From Gammaproteobacteria bacterium (GTDB taxonomy: Bacteria > Pseudomonadota > Gammaproteobacteria > Pseudomonadales > Azotimanducaceae), in the NCBI GenBank assembly GCA_018666555.1, contig JABIZD010000171.1, positions 1 to 43,337 on the forward strand: a stretch of DNA of 43,337 nucleotides. Reading direction: 5' to 3'. The position numbers and the translations under genes were made by a program. The notes beneath the pieces were generated by a model. It did no database searches. It saw only the letters and a program-made list of their open reading frames with translations, and was not told the DNA's origin. Below, in pieces: positions 453 to 8,100 of this stretch (position 1 is the first letter of the stretch; every line of letters starts with the position of its first letter).

Positions 453-1829
453 ATGAATCTAATTAAAAAATGGCTAACCCCATCGTCGCAAAAGAAAGCC
501 AAGACTTCTGCACCAGCAAGTCAGATGAGTCCCCGCGATCAAAAACCAAAAGCGAAAAAAAATAAACCGAAAGCACCTGTGCCGCAGTCAAAGCCAGTCG
601 CCCGGCAACCCTTGGGACAAGACTTCGCTGATCTGGATCTACCAGACCCTTTAAACCAAGCTATTATTTCACTCGAGTTTTCCCAGTGTACACCAGTGCA
701 AAAAGAGGTGCTGCCACATAGCCTGGATGGAGAGGATGTCATTGCGCAGGCTCAAACAGGAACGGGTAAAACTGCCGCATTCCTGATCTCGATAATCACC
801 TATCATCTCGAAAACCCAGAGTACAACCATCGCAAGGCTGGCACTCCATTTGCCCTGATAATAGCTCCCACCCGCGAGTTGGTCATGCAAATCACACAGG
901 ATGCCGTATTACTGACGCAGTATACCGATATCAAGGTGATGTCAGTGGTCGGTGGAATTGATTACGAAAAGCAGAAAACTCAGCTGGCGGGTCCCGTAGA
1001 AATCATCGTTGCCACACCCGGGCGGCTTTTAGATTTCTGTCGTTCTAGCATCATCGACTTATCCAAGGTAGAAATGCTAGTCATTGATGAAGCCGACCGA
1101 ATGCTCAACATGGGCTTTATCCCGGATGTTAAAGCTATCGTACAGCGCACTCCAAAAAAGGACAAAAGGCAGACCCAGCTTTACAGCGCAACCCTTAGCG
1201 AAGATATCAAAAGACTGGCCAGCCAATGGACCATGAAACCAGTCAATGTCACCATAGAACCAGAAAAGCTAGCTGTCGACTCCGTCGAACAGATAATTTA
1301 CTTCACTACCCAAGAGGAAAAACTTAATGTCCTGGGTAATCTGATATCAGAAAATCCGGATAGTAAACTGATTGTTTTCGTTAATCGTAGAGATGACACT
1401 CGTCGGCTTGAAGATCGCCTGTACCGGCGTGGATACAGCACAGGGTTGCTAACCGGGGAAGTGCCTCAACGCAAGCGCATCAAAACCTTAAGTGATTTCA
1501 AAGAAGGTAAAATACAGGTTCTTGTAGCAACTGACGTCGCTGGACGTGGCATCCATGTAGATAATATCAGTCATGTCGTGAATTTTAATCTACCAGAAGA
1601 TCCGGAAGATTATGTCCATAGAATTGGTCGAACCGGAAGAGCAGGAGCAACTGGAATATCGATAAGTCTGGTGTGTGAAAGCGATGCATTTATGATGCCA
1701 AGCATTGAGGAACTGCTGGGAGAGTCTCTGTCTTTCCAATATCCGCCAGATCAGTTACTGGCACCACTGAAAGCACCCCATAGAAAATCCCGCTCGCCGC
1801 AAAAAGTAAATAAACGCCATGACCGCTAG
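453..1829 (+). CDS. rhlB: ATP-dependent DEAD-box RNA helicase RhlB
   Basis: 458-aa DEAD-box helicase. After a lysine/proline-rich, probably disordered RNA-binding extension (about residues 1-52) come the Q-motif region, motif I AQTGTGKT (100-107), PTRELVMQI, VATPGRLLD, DEAD (212-215), SAT, and a second RecA domain ending in YVHRIGRTGRAG. The VAGRGIHVDNISHVVNF...LPEDPEDYVHR stretch is typical of the RhlB branch. In Escherichia coli RhlB unwinds mRNA for RNase E in the degradosome; the Pseudomonas-type proteins carry a similar basic N-terminal tail. It lies upstream of the cupin gene and overlaps it by 11 bases, so the two are probably cotranscribed. No strong Shine-Dalgarno precedes the ATG. 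Assignment to RhlB rather than RhlE or SrmB rests on the C-terminal motifs and overall feel. Confidence 0.85.
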   Translation: MNLIKKWLTPSSQKKAKTSAPASQMSPRDQKPKAKKNKPKAPVPQSKPVARQPLGQDFADLDLPDPLNQAIISLEFSQCTPVQKEVLPHSLDGEDVIAQAQTGTGKTAAFLISIITYHLENPEYNHRKAGTPFALIIAPTRELVMQITQDAVLLTQYTDIKVMSVVGGIDYEKQKTQLAGPVEIIVATPGRLLDFCRSSIIDLSKVEMLVIDEADRMLNMGFIPDVKAIVQRTPKKDKRQTQLYSATLSEDIKRLASQWTMKPVNVTIEPEKLAVDSVEQIIYFTTQEEKLNVLGNLISENPDSKLIVFVNRRDDTRRLEDRLYRRGYSTGLLTGEVPQRKRIKTLSDFKEGKIQVLVATDVAGRGIHVDNISHVVNFNLPEDPEDYVHRIGRTGRAGATGISISLVCESDAFMMPSIEELLGESLSFQYPPDQLLAPLKAPHRKSRSPQKVNKRHDR

Positions 1830-2301
1830 CAAACCTCTTTTAACCGCAAAAGAGATAGAACAGTTAGCTGAAAAAGAACATATCCATCAACACAATGATA
1901 ATGCCATACGAATGACCCGATCACTCAGTGATGCCACCGGCATCAACAGCTTTGGCGTTCATATGGTTCGAGTTAACCAAGGTAGGGAGTCCACCGAATT
2001 TCACCGCCATCAGCAGGATGAAGAATTCATCTATATTCTGTCCGGTAAAGGAGTTGCCACAATCGGGGGTGCGCAATTCCATATATCCAAGGGCGATTTT
2101 ATGGGTTTCAGCAAAAATTCCCAGGCCCATTCGATGTTTAACCCCAACAGCGAAGACCTCGTCTATCTAATGGGAGGCAGTCGCAGCGACATCGATATCT
2201 GCGATTATCCCAGGTTGCAACGGCGACAGTTCAGAGTAAATGGCAGCAGAGAATTCACACATTGGGACAACCTTAAGCCGGTTCAGCCTGACATCAGCTA
2301 A
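1819..2301 (+). CDS. single-domain cupin protein
   Basis: 160-aa cupin. Motif 1 is seen as EFHRHQQDEEFIYILSGKG (two histidines and a glutamate, HxHx4E) and motif 2 as GDFMGFSKNSQAHSMFN (the third histidine), so a divalent metal could be bound in a beta-barrel. No fused domain or signal peptide is present. Family members range from dioxygenases and isomerases to sugar or oxalate binders, so the reaction cannot be named. It begins inside the 3' end of rhlB (11-base overlap) and is followed 25 bases later by the DUF2237 gene, suggesting translational coupling in one operon that continues to the halohydrin-dehalogenase-like gene. Confidence 0.8.
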   Translation: MTASKPLLTAKEIEQLAEKEHIHQHNDNAIRMTRSLSDATGINSFGVHMVRVNQGRESTEFHRHQQDEEFIYILSGKGVATIGGAQFHISKGDFMGFSKNSQAHSMFNPNSEDLVYLMGGSRSDIDICDYPRLQRRQFRVNGSREFTHWDNLKPVQPDIS

Positions 2302-2326: not shown

Positions 2327-2716
2327 ATGTCAAAGCAAATAACTCTCGACGACTCCGTTAATGTATTTGGTGATGAACTGCTCCCCTGCAGCCTGGATCC
2401 GCTAACCGGTTTCTTCAGAGATGGCTGCTGCAACACCTGTGAGCAAGATGTTGGTTCTCATACTATTTGCGTTGAAGTAAATGACCAGTTTTTGGCATTC
2501 TCCAAATCCGTTGGCAATGACTTATCTACACCCCAACCCGGTGGGACTTTCCAGGGTCTAAAGTCAGGTGATCGCTGGTGTTTGTGCGCAGCCCGCTGGC
2601 TTCAGGCCTACCAGGACGGAGCAGCGCCACGTATTTTTCTGAACAGCACTCACATTAATGCCCTTGAAATCGTCCCACTTGAACTGCTGCAGGAATTTGC
2701 AGTCACCGTGAATTGA
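2327..2716 (+). CDS. DUF2237 family protein
   Basis: 129-aa protein matching the conserved DUF2237 family. Diagnostic stretches are NVFGDELLPCSLDPLTGFFRDGCC, SHTICVEVNDQFLAFSKSVGNDLSTP and GDRWCLCAARW. Five or more conserved cysteines (CS, GCCNTC, TIC, WCLC) suggest metal or redox chemistry, but the function of the family is unknown to me. The frame is open further upstream; I chose the ATG at 2327 because conserved sequence begins soon after it and it lies beyond the cupin stop. The next gene starts one base after its stop, so it should be cotranslated with the SDR. It is soluble, with no signal peptide. Confidence 0.85.
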   Translation: MSKQITLDDSVNVFGDELLPCSLDPLTGFFRDGCCNTCEQDVGSHTICVEVNDQFLAFSKSVGNDLSTPQPGGTFQGLKSGDRWCLCAARWLQAYQDGAAPRIFLNSTHINALEIVPLELLQEFAVTVN

Positions 2717-2717
2717 A

Positions 2718-3398
2718 ATGAGTAGACTGGATAAAAAGAAGATTCTCATCACCCAAAGTCAGGACTATATGGGGCCGGCAATCACTGACCTGTTCCAAGC
2801 AGAAGGCGCACACCTGATTTGCAAGCAAGGACCAGTTCCGGGGCAAGGCAGTCTTGAAGACTATGCTGCTGATTGTAGTGATATCGATATTCTCATCGCT
2901 AATCTCGCCCATGATCCATGCAACTCACCTGTAAGCAACATACTTGATGCAGACTGGCAGGCTCTTTTTGACTCTATGGTACATCCCCTCATGGTGCTGA
3001 TAAGGCACTTTGCACCAATCATGGCAGCTAGAGGTCACGGCAAGATCATCGCCATTACCAGTGCGGCGCCATTACGCGGCATTCCAGGATCGACGGCCTA
3101 CTGTGCAGCCAGAGGTGCACAAAATGCTTTTATTCGCGCCTGTGGCCTTGAATACGCACCCGAGAATGTACAGATCAATGCAATCGCACAGAACTATGTC
3201 AGCAATCCCGTCTATTACCCTGAAGAATTGGTGAACAGCGAACGCTTTCAAACCCACCTAAAAAGAAATGTACCCATTGGCAGAGTCGCAAAGCCCGAAG
3301 AGCAGGCAGAATTAGCGCTATTCCTGGCCTCAGACCACAGCGACTTTTTTGTCGGGCAAATTTTCCCGTTCGCGGGTGGCTGGGTCACAGGGCTATGA
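2718..3398 (+). CDS. halohydrin dehalogenase-like SDR protein
   Basis: 226-aa Rossmann-fold protein of the SDR superfamily that lacks the features of a true dehydrogenase. The nucleotide-binding glycine motif is replaced by T12-x4-Y17-x-G19, and the active site is S115-x12-Y128-x3-R132 instead of S-Y-K. These two patterns are the signatures of halohydrin dehalogenases, which convert vicinal haloalcohols to epoxides plus halide without cofactor, and reverse this with azide, cyanide or nitrite. The segment after the active site, QNYVSNPVYYPEE (N159, Y160, Y166, Y167), aligns with the halide-pocket loop of HheC (PNY...FYPTE). The C-terminal part (RVAKPEEQAELALFLASD...VGQIFPFAGGW) also follows HheA/HheC closely. 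Catalysis and substrate are inferred, not shown. The gene is tightly coupled to DUF2237. Alternative: a catalytically inert or non-redox SDR with another role. Confidence 0.8.
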   Translation: MSRLDKKKILITQSQDYMGPAITDLFQAEGAHLICKQGPVPGQGSLEDYAADCSDIDILIANLAHDPCNSPVSNILDADWQALFDSMVHPLMVLIRHFAPIMAARGHGKIIAITSAAPLRGIPGSTAYCAARGAQNAFIRACGLEYAPENVQINAIAQNYVSNPVYYPEELVNSERFQTHLKRNVPIGRVAKPEEQAELALFLASDHSDFFVGQIFPFAGGWVTGL

Positions 3399-3417: not shown

Positions 3418-3972
3418 ATGATTTCCCGGGAAATCAGGGTCTGGCACCTGGAATTATTTGAAAGCCACAAAATACAGGAGATGGATGACCGGCCATATAG
3501 TCTTGCCAGGCAAACTGAATTAACCCCGGAATTCAATCGCTATCTCTATACCGCGGTGGGAAGCCAATGGTATTGGATTGATCGCCTTAACTGGTCTCAC
3601 AGCGACTGGAAAAACTACTTGCAAGCACCTGAAGTCGAAGTCTGGGTTGCTTATCAGCAGGCAGACCCTATCGGCTACTTTGAACTTGCTCTGCAACCCT
3701 CCAAATCCGTAGAGATCTCCTACTTCGGTTTATTACCGTATTTTATTGGCCGAGGTTTAGGGGGTAAATTCTTAGATGACGCCATCCACAGAGCGTTTAT
3801 TCTTGGTGGCAATCGCGTTTGGCTACATACCTGTACCCTGGATCATCCCAGAGCGCTGCAGAATTATCAGTTAAAAGGTTTTAAGGTTTTCAAAGAAGAG
3901 CAGTTCACCACTCAACTACCCGCTGATAATCTTCAACCCTGGCCAGGTGCAAACGCTCCGCAAACCTCTTAA
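3418..3972 (+). CDS. GNAT family N-acetyltransferase
   Basis: 184-aa acetyltransferase-fold protein. The acetyl-CoA pyrophosphate-binding motif A is visible as ISYFGLLPYFIGRGLGGKFL (R/Q-x-x-G-x-G/A form in GRGLGG). Motif B follows with WLHTCTLDHPRALQNYQLKGFKVF, the usual helix-turn-strand closing the CoA site. The acceptor is unknown; similar stand-alone GNATs acetylate small amines, amino acids or protein N-termini. It lies 19 bases after the SDR on the same strand and probably ends this operon; the 154 bases that follow contain no gene and no obvious terminator hairpin. Confidence 0.8.
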   Translation: MISREIRVWHLELFESHKIQEMDDRPYSLARQTELTPEFNRYLYTAVGSQWYWIDRLNWSHSDWKNYLQAPEVEVWVAYQQADPIGYFELALQPSKSVEISYFGLLPYFIGRGLGGKFLDDAIHRAFILGGNRVWLHTCTLDHPRALQNYQLKGFKVFKEEQFTTQLPADNLQPWPGANAPQTS

Positions 3973-4126: not shown

Positions 4127-5476
4127 TCAGTAGGCTTGAGCCGGTAACCAGAGCACCAGATCTGACCAGACATAGATGACTACCAAACCAATCAATTGCA
4201 AAACAATAAAAGGCACCACACCCCGATAGATGGTAGCAACAGATATCTCAGGAGGTGCCACACCTTTTAAGTAAAAAATGGCGAAACCAACAGGCGGGGT
4301 TAGAAAGGCAGTCTGCAAACAGACTGCAAATAACACCGTAAACCAGATCAGGTTAAAACCCAGGTCAGCCACTACTGGACTAACCAAGGGCAGGACAATC
4401 AGCGTTATCTCAATCCAATCAAGGAAGAATCCGAGTAAAAAGGTCACCAGTAGAATAACAATAATAATACCATGAGCTTCGAAAGGCAGACCTAGCAAAG
4501 CATCGGCTATCAATTCGTCGCCACCCAGTCCCCTGAGGACCAGCGAAAACGCCGTTGCACCGATAAAAATTGCAAAAATAAAGCCGGTGGTTTTAGTCGT
4601 TTCAATGACCACTTCACGCAGCACAGTGGTATTCAGCTGACCCTGTAGCCAGGCCAGCAACATCGCACCAAAAGCACCGACACCCGCGGCTTCAGTAGGC
4701 GTCGCCACACCAAAAAAAATTGATCCGAGAACCGCTAGAATCAACAGCACAGGGGGAACAATTGAAACCAGCACCTTGATTATTAACCCCGCTGAAAGAC
4801 TCTCTAACTTATCCGCAGGGGGTGCGAGTTCTGGTCTCATATAGGCCAGCCCGACAATATAAATGACAAACATGGCTCCCAGTAACAAACCCGGGAAAAG
4901 GGCTCCCAGGAACAGATCACCCACGGGTAAAGCAAGCCGGTCAGCCATTAATACCAACATAATGCTAGGAGGGATCAAGATGCCCAGGGTACCCACCGCA
5001 CACACCGTACCCGCAGCTAGTTCAGGCTGGTAACGCTGGGCAAGCATAGGCGGGATACCGAGTAAGCCTAACAAAACAACCGATGCACCGATGATACCGG
5101 TGGAGGCGGCAAGTAGTACGCCAATTAAGGCTACAGACAAGGCCAAGCCTCCTGGGATCGAGTTAAAAACGCTCGATAAATTATCCAGCAGCCGTTTTGC
5201 CAAACCAGACCTGTCCAACATGATCCCCATGAAGATGAACATTGGCAGCGCAACCAACACCCAATTATTCATGACATCCCATATTCGATCTGCTACCAGG
5301 GTGGAATAATCCCAGTTAATAGCAACATCGAGTTTAAAATCAATCTGAGCCACAATACCGATAGCAGTAAACAATACTGCTAACCCTCCCAGGACCCAGG
5401 CAACCGGGAATCCTGAAAATATCAGCACGATAAAGGATAAAAACATCATCAAGCTTAACCAATCCCCAGCCGACAT
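4127..5476 (-). CDS. dctM: TRAP transporter large permease (DctM-type)
   Basis: 449-aa integral membrane protein, almost entirely hydrophobic with about a dozen helices. The DctM signature is visible in GLLGIPPMLAQRYQPELAAGTVCAVGTLGILIPPSI and the related half-repeat late in the protein (LTPPVGFAIFYLKG). It is the large subunit of a tripartite ATP-independent periplasmic transporter that couples solute uptake to a sodium gradient in the inner membrane. The ATG overlaps the stop codon of the small-permease gene by one base, so the subunits are translationally coupled. The substrate is set by the binding protein at 6025-7134. Confidence 0.92.
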   Translation of the reverse strand: MSAGDWLSLMMFLSFIVLIFSGFPVAWVLGGLAVLFTAIGIVAQIDFKLDVAINWDYSTLVADRIWDVMNNWVLVALPMFIFMGIMLDRSGLAKRLLDNLSSVFNSIPGGLALSVALIGVLLAASTGIIGASVVLLGLLGIPPMLAQRYQPELAAGTVCAVGTLGILIPPSIMLVLMADRLALPVGDLFLGALFPGLLLGAMFVIYIVGLAYMRPELAPPADKLESLSAGLIIKVLVSIVPPVLLILAVLGSIFFGVATPTEAAGVGAFGAMLLAWLQGQLNTTVLREVVIETTKTTGFIFAIFIGATAFSLVLRGLGGDELIADALLGLPFEAHGIIIVILLVTFLLGFFLDWIEITLIVLPLVSPVVADLGFNLIWFTVLFAVCLQTAFLTPPVGFAIFYLKGVAPPEISVATIYRGVVPFIVLQLIGLVVIYVWSDLVLWLPAQAY

Positions 5477-6024
5477 CAGGATTGCACCTTTTCAGGCCAG
5501 TTAAACAGGAAGCTGGAGACTCTAGCTAATCGGGCTAAAGCGGCGAGCACAAGCAATACAAAACTAACCGGCAGCAACCCCTTGATTAACCAGCGAAAGG
5601 GTAACCCGCCGGGCGCTTCTGATATTTCAGCCGTGCTGAACGAATACTGTACCAGAGGCACTGAAGCATAGATTACCAGCACCAGAAAGGGCAGCAACAA
5701 TACCATGATACCGTAAAGTTCAACCCACGCTTGCGTCACCGCAGACCATCTCTGGCGCAACACATCTACCCTGACATGAGCATCGAGGACAAAGGCGTAA
5801 GTCAGCCCAATCAGAAACCCGCCGGAATAAAGGTGCCATTGCAATTCTTCGAGTTCGATAAAGCCTTGGGCGAACCAATATCTAGCGATAACATTTATCA
5901 TAATGACCAACAACAATAACAACCAAATAACGCCTGTCCATACCCCTAAACTGACAAGAGCCGCCTCGACGAACCTTGAAAATCGCGTTTCAGGATACGA
6001 TGGCTTTGATTGAGCCTGCATCAT
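5476..6024 (-). CDS. dctQ: TRAP transporter small permease (DctQ-type)
   Basis: 182-aa membrane protein with four predicted helices, the normal size and topology for a DctQ subunit. The region after the first helix shows the family pattern of aromatic/charged residues (ARYWFAQGFIELEELQWHLYSGGFLIG). It forms the membrane complex with the large permease and stabilises it. It starts directly after the stop of the binding-protein gene and shares one base with the large permease, giving the order P-Q-M in one transcription unit. Two consecutive ATG codons are possible starts. Confidence 0.9.
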   Translation of the reverse strand: MMQAQSKPSYPETRFSRFVEAALVSLGVWTGVIWLLLLLVIMINVIARYWFAQGFIELEELQWHLYSGGFLIGLTYAFVLDAHVRVDVLRQRWSAVTQAWVELYGIMVLLLPFLVLVIYASVPLVQYSFSTAEISEAPGGLPFRWLIKGLLPVSFVLLVLAALARLARVSSFLFNWPEKVQS

Positions 6025-7134
6025 CTACTCAAAATCCCGGGGCAAATAGGCGAGTTCCTTCCAGTTTCGATAGTCTGCCATAAAGGCTTTCTGTGAAGCC
6101 CATATTTCAGCAAAATCAGCATCCTTTTCTGCCTCTTCCTGCAATACCGCTGTCGAGATTGTCTGTAGTTCTCTCAGCAGTTCCAGGTCAAATTTTATCG
6201 GCGTTACCCCCTTATCAGCGAAACCAGTGATGACTCGACCCTGCAACGATTCTCCACGAGCTAAATTCCTGATTACCCCACTGGTACAGGCCATTTCAAG
6301 CAAGGTCTGGTCAGAAGCAGACAGGGCATTCCATCTGTCCAGGTTGACGACGAAATGTGACGCTGTAAATGTCTGGTGCCAACCAGGAAAGTAATTATAT
6401 TTTGCCACCTTATCAAAGCCCAGTAATTGATCGACATTGGGAAGTGAAAACTCAGTAGCATCTATGGCGCCCTTCTCCAGAGCCTGAAAAATTTCACCCG
6501 ATGGAATAAGCGTTACTGAGGCCCCCAATTGCTGAAGAACCCGGCCTCCCAAACCGGCAAAACGAATCTTAAGGCCGTCAAACTGGCTTAAATCTGTAAT
6601 TGGAAATCTAAACCAGCCGGCTGTTTCAGGGCCTATAATTCCACACAATATGGGATGAATATTATGGGATCGATAGAGGTTTTCGGCTAATTGTTGACCT
6701 CCTGCCTCATAGTACCAGGCAGTATACTCCCAGGGTTCCATACCAAATGGCACTGCGGCAATAAGCGGCGTTGCCGGTATTCTGCCCTGATCATATCCAA
6801 GCCAGGTATAACCCGCTTCCAGTTTACCGTCTTTGACACTTTCGGTAATACTAAAGGCTGGCACCAGCGTTCCCGGTTCATATATTTCCAGTTGAATTCT
6901 ACCCGCCGTTGCAAGCCGTAAACGCTCTGATATCTGAAGTATATTGTCACCCAAGGCGGGTAAATTGGTGCCAAACGCGACTGGCGTTCGCCATTTTATA
7001 ACGCTCCTGGCTGTTTGAGTAACCTTGGCCGTTGCATCTGCCTCTGTGGAGCGCAAACTTAACGAACCTAACAGGCCTGCAGTGAATGCGACCAAAATAG
7101 CAATCAGGGCTGTTCGATTGTTCCAATGATTCAT
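6025..7134 (-). CDS. dctP: TRAP transporter substrate-binding protein (DctP/TakP-like)
   Basis: 369-aa periplasmic solute-binding protein with an N-terminal hydrophobic segment (about residues 8-28) that serves as signal peptide or anchor. The mature part shows DctP-family features: WRTPVAFG...LGDNILQISERLRLATAGRI near the start, the GLKIRFAGLGGRVLQQLGA hinge with the conserved substrate-binding arginine, IPSGEIFQALEKGAIDATEF, and FNYFPGWHQ-like YNYFPGWHQTFTASHFVVN. The last two resemble the TakP/oxo-acid branch (family DctP7), which binds 2-oxo acids such as pyruvate with sodium. The substrate is therefore likely a small carboxylate, but this is inference. It is the first gene of the TRAP operon and is transcribed away from the alpha/beta hydrolase gene. 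Confidence 0.88.
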   Translation of the reverse strand: MNHWNNRTALIAILVAFTAGLLGSLSLRSTEADATAKVTQTARSVIKWRTPVAFGTNLPALGDNILQISERLRLATAGRIQLEIYEPGTLVPAFSITESVKDGKLEAGYTWLGYDQGRIPATPLIAAVPFGMEPWEYTAWYYEAGGQQLAENLYRSHNIHPILCGIIGPETAGWFRFPITDLSQFDGLKIRFAGLGGRVLQQLGASVTLIPSGEIFQALEKGAIDATEFSLPNVDQLLGFDKVAKYNYFPGWHQTFTASHFVVNLDRWNALSASDQTLLEMACTSGVIRNLARGESLQGRVITGFADKGVTPIKFDLELLRELQTISTAVLQEEAEKDADFAEIWASQKAFMADYRNWKELAYLPRDFE

Positions 7135-7203
7135 AATGCGATCGACTCTGATAATCTTTGAATGACTGCCCTATACTAACGCGATTCAATATTGGTAGCA
7201 CCC

Positions 7204-8100
7204 ATGACACCGACGTGGTTTAAAGAAAGCCTGAATCACCAGCCCTCAGCACATTTTATTGATGTAAGCGGTGCAAAAATACACTACCTTAGCTGGTTTA
7301 ATCCGGGCAAACCCGGCCTGCTGTTTGTTCATGGCCATGCCGCGCACGCTCACTGGTGGGATTTCATCGCACCAGGCCTGGCAACTGACTACAGCATCGC
7401 AGCAATAGACTTAAGTGGTTCCGGCGACAGTGATCATCGCAAGCTCTACAGCACGGAAATTTTTGCTGAAGAAATAGCCGCCGTTATCGCCGCGGAGGGA
7501 TGGGATGACGTTAGCCTGGTCGCGCACAGTTTCGGCGGTGTCATGGCTCGAAGCACTACTTTTTTATATCCAGGGCTAATCCAAACCATGGTACTGGTTG
7601 ATAGCGTCGTGAATGGACGGGCCAGAAGCGCTAAAGCAGTAGAAAAACCGATCCGGTCACCCAGGAGGTCGAGAGCGACCCAGGAACGGATTTACAAGAC
7701 TATCAGCGAAGGACAGCGGCGTTTTCGTCTCAAGCCACCACAACCCTGCGAAAATGCTTATATTATTGACCACATTTCCAGGCATTCCCTGAAAGAAACA
7801 CAAAAGGGCTATACATTTAAACTGGACCGGAAATTATTTGCAAAATTAAAGGCAAGCCCTAACCTTCCGAACGGGTTAAAAATGGTACAGGCTTTCATGG
7901 GAACCAAGGGATTCGTCATCGGTGAGGACAGTCACTTCTTCACCGGTATCAACACCACTAACCTGGAAACGCTGCAGTCACTCAGGCCAGGCAAGTACTT
8001 ACAGGTGATTTCGGGTGCGCGCCATCATGTCTTCCTGGATAAGCCACAAAGCTTCATTCGCTCCCTCAAAACGCTGCTGAGTAGCAACCCGGCTGTTTGA
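7204..8100 (+). CDS. alpha/beta hydrolase
   Basis: 298-aa alpha/beta-hydrolase-fold protein. The oxyanion-hole motif is HGHAAH (43-48), the nucleophile elbow is AHSFGG with serine 109, and the catalytic histidine is in GARHHVFLDKP near residue 276. Serine, not aspartate, is the nucleophile, so this is an esterase/lipase/C-C hydrolase type and not a haloalkane dehalogenase or epoxide hydrolase, in spite of the nearby halohydrin-dehalogenase-like gene. A cap domain rich in basic residues fills residues about 135-220. I start at the ATG at 7204; a TTG four codons upstream is possible. It is divergent from the TRAP operon across about 70 bases. Confidence 0.85.
   Translation: MTPTWFKESLNHQPSAHFIDVSGAKIHYLSWFNPGKPGLLFVHGHAAHAHWWDFIAPGLATDYSIAAIDLSGSGDSDHRKLYSTEIFAEEIAAVIAAEGWDDVSLVAHSFGGVMARSTTFLYPGLIQTMVLVDSVVNGRARSAKAVEKPIRSPRRSRATQERIYKTISEGQRRFRLKPPQPCENAYIIDHISRHSLKETQKGYTFKLDRKLFAKLKASPNLPNGLKMVQAFMGTKGFVIGEDSHFFTGINTTNLETLQSLRPGKYLQVISGARHHVFLDKPQSFIRSLKTLLSSNPAV

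Follow-up and report, generated by a model that had tools for sequence, protein, structure and literature searches.

Hhe, a probable halohydrin dehalogenase of short-chain dehydrogenase fold encoded in an Azotimanducaceae genome

The DNA analysed here, called the window throughout, is a stretch of 43,337 nucleotides on contig JABIZD010000171.1 (assembly GCA_018666555.1) from a gammaproteobacterium of the order Pseudomonadales and family Azotimanducaceae. Its subject is the gene hhe, an ATG-to-stop open reading frame (ORF) at 2718..3398 on the forward strand that encodes a product of 226 amino acids, P0001. The hhe start codon lies 1 nt past the stop codon of a gene for a DUF2237 protein, and the two are thus in an operon-like arrangement. 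With a probability of roughly 0.88, P0001 can be regarded as a cofactor-independent halohydrin dehalogenase (HHDH) built on the fold of the short-chain dehydrogenases/reductases (SDRs) that interconverts halohydrins and epoxides. This identity was suggested in an original prediction made from the DNA letters, and it is supported by the sequence motifs, the nearest solved protein chains, a phylogenetic tree and the loss of the segment that binds the cofactor in SDRs.

Two signatures separate HHDHs from classical SDRs. As defined in PMC11976700, these are T-X4-F/Y-X-G and S-X12-Y-X3-R for HHDHs as opposed to T-G/A-X3-G/A-X-G and S-X10-14-Y-X3-K for SDRs. Translation of the ORF confirms both HHDH motifs at the residues first proposed, and they match these published definitions. 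Motif 1, T12-x4-Y17-x-G19 (2751..2774, forward strand), reads T12-QSQD-Y17-M-G19, replaces the glycine-rich NAD(P) motif and would form the nucleophile or halide pocket. Motif 2, S115-x12-Y128-x3-R132 (3060..3113, forward strand), supplies the predicted catalytic triad and is evident both in the sequence and by alignment. In earlier work that filtered candidates by the two motifs, HHDH activity was confirmed in a selection of 19 expressed enzymes, according to PMC4989007. A putative halide-site loop, N159-Y160...Y166-Y167-P168-E169-E170 (3192..3227, forward strand), can be aligned with those of HheB, HheC, HheD2 and HheD8; the predicted structure, built on a shallow alignment of 11 sequences, has a predicted local distance difference test score (pLDDT) below 50 at residues 160-168. 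Like this loop, the LASD...VGQIFPFAGGW region that had been likened to known HHDHs is present in P0001.

The same motifs recur among the relatives of hhe. Both were found in 62 of 62 loci (the window counted), which were chosen by similarity to P0001 and hence are no independent sample. Across these loci and six references, the residues T12, G19, D57, S115, Y128, A131, R132, L203, G213, G220 and G221 are invariant. None of nine further SDR ORFs from the stretches around these loci carries the two motifs together, and only one of them, at locus L108, has a chance string resembling motif 1. Motif 1 was likewise absent from all 16 SDR control loci (nine full-length, seven fragments), while S-x12-Y-x3-R occurred in one, L129.

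The alignment also indicates how the cofactor site was lost. P0001 lacks about 22 residues of the nucleotide-binding half of SDRs, as do HheB, HheD2 and HheD8, while HheA2, HheC and the chain 6a41 retain them. Where SDRs have TGxxxGIG, P0001 has motif 1; ANLAHD takes the place of NNAG, M87 that of the catalytic Asn and R132 that of the catalytic Lys. The classical T-G/A-X3-G/A-X-G motif was not found at the cofactor position of P0001, nor does P0001 match S-X10-14-Y-X3-K, as Arg132 stands where Lys is required. Absence of the glycine motif is not decisive by itself, since the full-length SDR control L118 lacks a match as well. Judged from these features of the sequence, P0001 would have no nicotinamide cofactor site.

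A phmmer search of P0001 against solved structures gave 8xxb (1.1e-51), 7b73 (2.1e-51), HheB 5b12 (1.7e-44) and 4zd6 (2.7e-44) as the nearest chains. These were followed by 6a41 (1.3e-28), titled only 'dehalogenase', and by 3uxy (9.5e-24), an SDR by title; the A- and C-type HHDHs ranked lower, mixed with SDRs. Although both leading chains bear a generic SDR name in the structure listing, 8xxb is HheD8 with bound chloride according to its entry title, and 7b73 is HheD2 according to its own title and PMC9629495. A tree was built from 62 loci and six references, with E-, F- and G-type HHDH references left out, against nine full-length SDRs, seven of 16 SDR rows having been dropped as too short. 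It separates the 68 HHDH rows, P0001 among them, from the nine SDRs with support of 100/99; the tree program warned that long branches (HheA2, HheC and several SDRs) make deep joins unsure.

Some observations weigh against an HHDH identity. In structural comparison, P0001 scores equally well against SDRs and HHDHs. A loose G-x3-G-x-G match is present at residues 38-44, away from the cofactor position, and it recurs in no other locus save in an unrelated, spurious stretch of the L113 ORF. Profile searches point the same way: the only Pfam families found in P0001 are the SDR families adh_short and adh_short_C2, and the 25 NCBIfam matches listed are all SDR families, every one of them scoring far below its cut-off. 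Together with the overall fold, the Pfam matches and tied scores could be taken to mean that P0001 is an NAD(P)-dependent SDR displaying both motifs by accident. This is very improbable in view of its place among the HHDHs in the tree, the missing nucleotide-binding segment and glycine motif, and the exchange of Lys for Arg. Moreover, the Pfam matches begin only at residue 47-48, which is explained by the shortened nucleotide-binding half.

Within the HHDHs, P0001 forms a 64-row clade (97/92) with the B- and D-types, but it is neither D- nor B-type by tree position. It belongs to a clade of 27 rows (97/81) that contains no solved reference and includes genes from other families of the order. 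The sister group, where the B- and D-types join without P0001 (37 rows, 99/98), consists of a clade of 23 rows with HheD2 and HheD8 (100/99) and another of 14 rows with HheB (97/90). Membership in the D-type, which the original prediction mentioned beside the E-type as having members in marine gammaproteobacteria, is thus not supported by the tree. Published E-type HHDHs come from marine gammaproteobacteria. The clade of P0001 may represent subtype E or a subtype yet to be named; among the matches listed from the open-licence literature, no paper on HheE or on HHDHs of this bacterial family was found.

Comparison with individual HHDHs places P0001 among the short forms of the family. HheD2 and HheD8 share both motifs with it, are of the short type that lacks the nucleotide-binding segment, and are 41% and 40% identical, respectively, but they fall in their own clade. 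HheD2 and L102, a gene from a different taxonomic family within the order, match without a difference over 222 residues; the neighbours of L102 differ from those of hhe. HheB of Corynebacterium sp. N-1074 (4zd6, 5b12) is 39% identical, has the same short architecture and is the top structural match; however, it groups with further genes from the Azotimanducaceae and not with P0001. HheC (1pwx) and HheA2 (1zmo) possess both motifs and the catalytic triad, but at 25-26% identity and with a longer N-terminal half they occupy a separate branch. Among 461 matching plasmid records, the best was BES08_RS27300 on plasmid pSA2 of Novosphingobium resinovorum, a protein annotated merely as an SDR family oxidoreductase. 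It is 44.6% identical to P0001 with motif 2 intact, yet it has Ser for Thr in motif 1, lies on the HheB side of the tree and is encoded directly behind an EHN-type epoxide hydrolase in a catabolic-looking cluster.

The chemistry of P0001 can be proposed by analogy with the HHDH family. Activated by Arg132 and aided by Ser115, Tyr128 would take the proton from the hydroxyl group of a vicinal halohydrin, and the resulting alkoxide would then close to an epoxide, with the halide leaving into a pocket made up of T12, Y17, G19 and the 159-170 loop, and the reaction would be reversible. More speculatively, the enzyme could serve in the cell to clear or salvage naturally occurring halohydrins or epoxides, and EHN-type epoxide hydrolases, whose genes lie elsewhere in the genome, would perhaps take over the epoxide. 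Natural bromohydrins from the haloperoxidase chemistry of algae might be guessed at as substrates.

Turning to the neighbourhood, hhe is preceded on the forward strand by genes for an RhlB-like DEAD-box RNA helicase (453..1829), a cupin-domain protein (1819..2301; PF07883, E 1.4e-14) and the DUF2237 protein (2327..2716; PF09996, E 1.5e-50). For the helicase, the best model is NF002340 at 516.8 bits, below its cut-off of 564. The longest DUF2237 ORF (2240-2716) starts inside the cupin gene, and comparison with relatives suggests 2327 as the true start. A gene for a GNAT acetyltransferase (3418..3972, forward strand; PF00583) follows hhe directly, as it does in 14 loci of three genera. A scan of 20 further ORFs in the window showed many housekeeping genes. 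Thus the cupin and DUF2237 neighbours named by the original prediction are borne out by the family matches, and its housekeeping flanks hold broadly. On the reverse strand at 4127-7134, three genes that by eye resemble those of TRAP-type transporters (clusters c7, c8 and c9) each have conserved counterparts downstream of hhe in 12 loci.

In neighbourhood clusters built from ORFs of at least 70 amino acids, some of which are shadow ORFs, the order helicase, cupin, DUF2237, hhe and GNAT appears in 11 of the 12 loci that come from the window's genus; at the twelfth, L023, the contig starts just upstream of hhe. The shorter block of DUF2237, hhe and GNAT is conserved in three genera, the window's together with g9 and g21, the cupin lying about 1.8 kb upstream of hhe in g9 and being unseen in g21. 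Of the 15 genomes of the window's genus, 12 have hhe together with DUF2237 and three have neither. Such linkage is what would be expected if P0001 were a catalytically altered HHDH homologue that performs another reaction on a metabolite connected with the cupin, the DUF2237 protein or the GNAT. That alternative is improbable, since all catalytic and motif residues of P0001 are intact, related hhe genes in other genera adjoin other genes, DUF2237 and hhe each occur in genomes without the other, and the three genus genomes that lack both genes are incomplete (62, 84 and 72%). In other lineages the neighbours scanned vary and include genes for a DsbA-like protein, GNAT, a PQQ protein, HpaB, glyoxalase, GST, HlyD and transporters; no partner common to all hhe loci was seen in the comparison. 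Two further candidates were rejected. Adjacency to a GNAT gene does not link P0001 to HheD2-type genes, as the GNATs are without detectable likeness (one BLASTP, E 0.096). The 1116-residue ORF of L113 was considered as an HHDH fusion, but by eye its N-terminal part resembles a chance frame, and the HHDH portion starts with a Met of its own.

The original prediction also observed that no epoxide hydrolase lies nearby, and this stands for the locus. No EHN-type match was found on the window's contig, and BLAST with seven EHN enzymes detected no similar ORF in the 62 stretches, which are between about 4.6 and 14 kb long, with the window limited to its first 12.5 kb. Elsewhere in the same genome, however, three EHN-family epoxide hydrolases, each with GGDWG, are encoded on other contigs, so that a plausible downstream enzyme exists. 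According to a 2016 review (PMC4989007), only two of the HHDH genes then known shared an operon with an epoxide hydrolase gene, and other physiological functions were considered possible. No operon of this kind was found at the hhe locus, whether on the contig or in the 62 stretches, but one is apparent in pSA2 (NZ_CP017077.1, L153, 7796-9669), where the EHN gene ends 11 bp before the HheB-side HHDH gene. In genus g22 (HheB clade) and genome G129 (HheD clade), a distance of about 9-10 kb separates an EHN gene from the HHDH gene. All three physical links are outside the window's clade.

Co-occurrence across genomes can be given only as a lead, because phylogeny was not removed from the order-sample counts. 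In that sample, EHN is present in 23 of 36 genomes with hhe and 68 of 354 without, corresponding to 11 of 13 genera with hhe and 27 of 129 others. By HHDH clade, EHN accompanies hhe in 12 of 13 genomes for the window's clade, 5 of 5 for the HheB clade and 6 of 18 for the HheD clade. Within the window's family the contrast between genomes with and without hhe is weak, at 24/25 vs 8/12 among the relatives and 7/7 vs 10/11 in the order sample.

Other halogen-related genes offer no clearer partner. There is no support for the alpha/beta hydrolase at 7192-8100 acting locally as an epoxide hydrolase or a haloalkane dehalogenase: its NCBIfam scores are far below the cut-offs, it has only two weak solved relatives (the best, at 9.7e-11, a fluoroacetate dehalogenase), and by eye the nucleophile elbow AHSFGG carries serine. 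Among 58 genomes, haloalkane dehalogenase NF002938 exceeds its cut-off in 15, none of the window's genus; 2-haloacid dehalogenase TIGR01428 in 10, the window's genome not among them; and tryptophan halogenase PF04820 in 35, with two strong copies in the window's genome. By eye, none of these three showed a pattern that tracks hhe in the 58 genomes. The two tryptophan halogenase matches lie about 2 kb apart on contig C170 (18248-22999) of the window's genome.

An unlikely alternative is that the HHDH chemistry runs in reverse in the cell, with chloride, cyanate or nitrite quenching epoxides as a form of electrophile detoxification. The HHDH family works in both directions with several anions, as described in PMC4989007 and PMC11976700. 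In genus g22 (L149, L151 and L152), the HHDH gene is followed on the same strand by genes for a glyoxalase, GST and an HlyD-family protein, which resembles an electrophile-detoxification island; that relative, with its EHN gene in the wider vicinity, suits a protective role. However, the g22 neighbourhood belongs to another clade, and the cupin, DUF2237 and GNAT neighbours in the window are without such a pattern. In addition, the opening of epoxides by halide would presumably be redundant given the epoxide hydrolases.

The distribution of hhe speaks to how long it has been kept. Counts include the window's own genome, many genomes are incomplete, and the similarity scan of genome contigs reached close relatives and one distant match only. 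In a sample of relatives (58 genomes, 37 from the window's family), matches better than 1e-60 were found in 25, all within the family, and the first match after these, of whatever kind, was at 2.1e-22, leaving a clean gap. At E <= 1e-30, hhe was detected in 36 of 390 genomes (13 of 142 genera) of the order sample and in 5 of 398 of the phylum sample, with a single match per genome in both. One of the phylum-sample members, G543 (2.3e-32), groups with 6a41 in the tree. The rarity ascribed to HHDHs by the original prediction therefore applies to the phylum sample but not to the window's own family (25 of 37): hhe is uncommon overall and usual in its family. Estimates of dN/dS are about 0.06 for the window gene against L021 (dN 0.086, dS 1.52) and 0.09 for L028 against L024 (dN 0.046, dS 0.54), from six pairs compared, of which four were saturated at synonymous sites. 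By these estimates, purifying selection acts on hhe in the genus to which the window belongs. Within this group of bacteria, hhe seems to be an ordinary gene that has been kept for a long time, not one acquired recently for the degradation of pollutants.

A tentative extension of the HHDH assignment is that the 27-row clade could be an HHDH subtype, so far uncharacterised, that probably marine Pseudomonadales have retained by descent, and that it would turn over natural halohydrins and epoxides, not pollutants, together with unlinked EHN hydrolases. P0001 itself is probably a further member of a known, uncommon family of enzymes that make epoxides from halogenated alcohols. Its interest lies in retention across a bacterial family and in the question of what most HHDHs do for their hosts. 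Retention in the Azotimanducaceae, partial synteny and purifying selection make hhe a genetically testable place to pursue that question.
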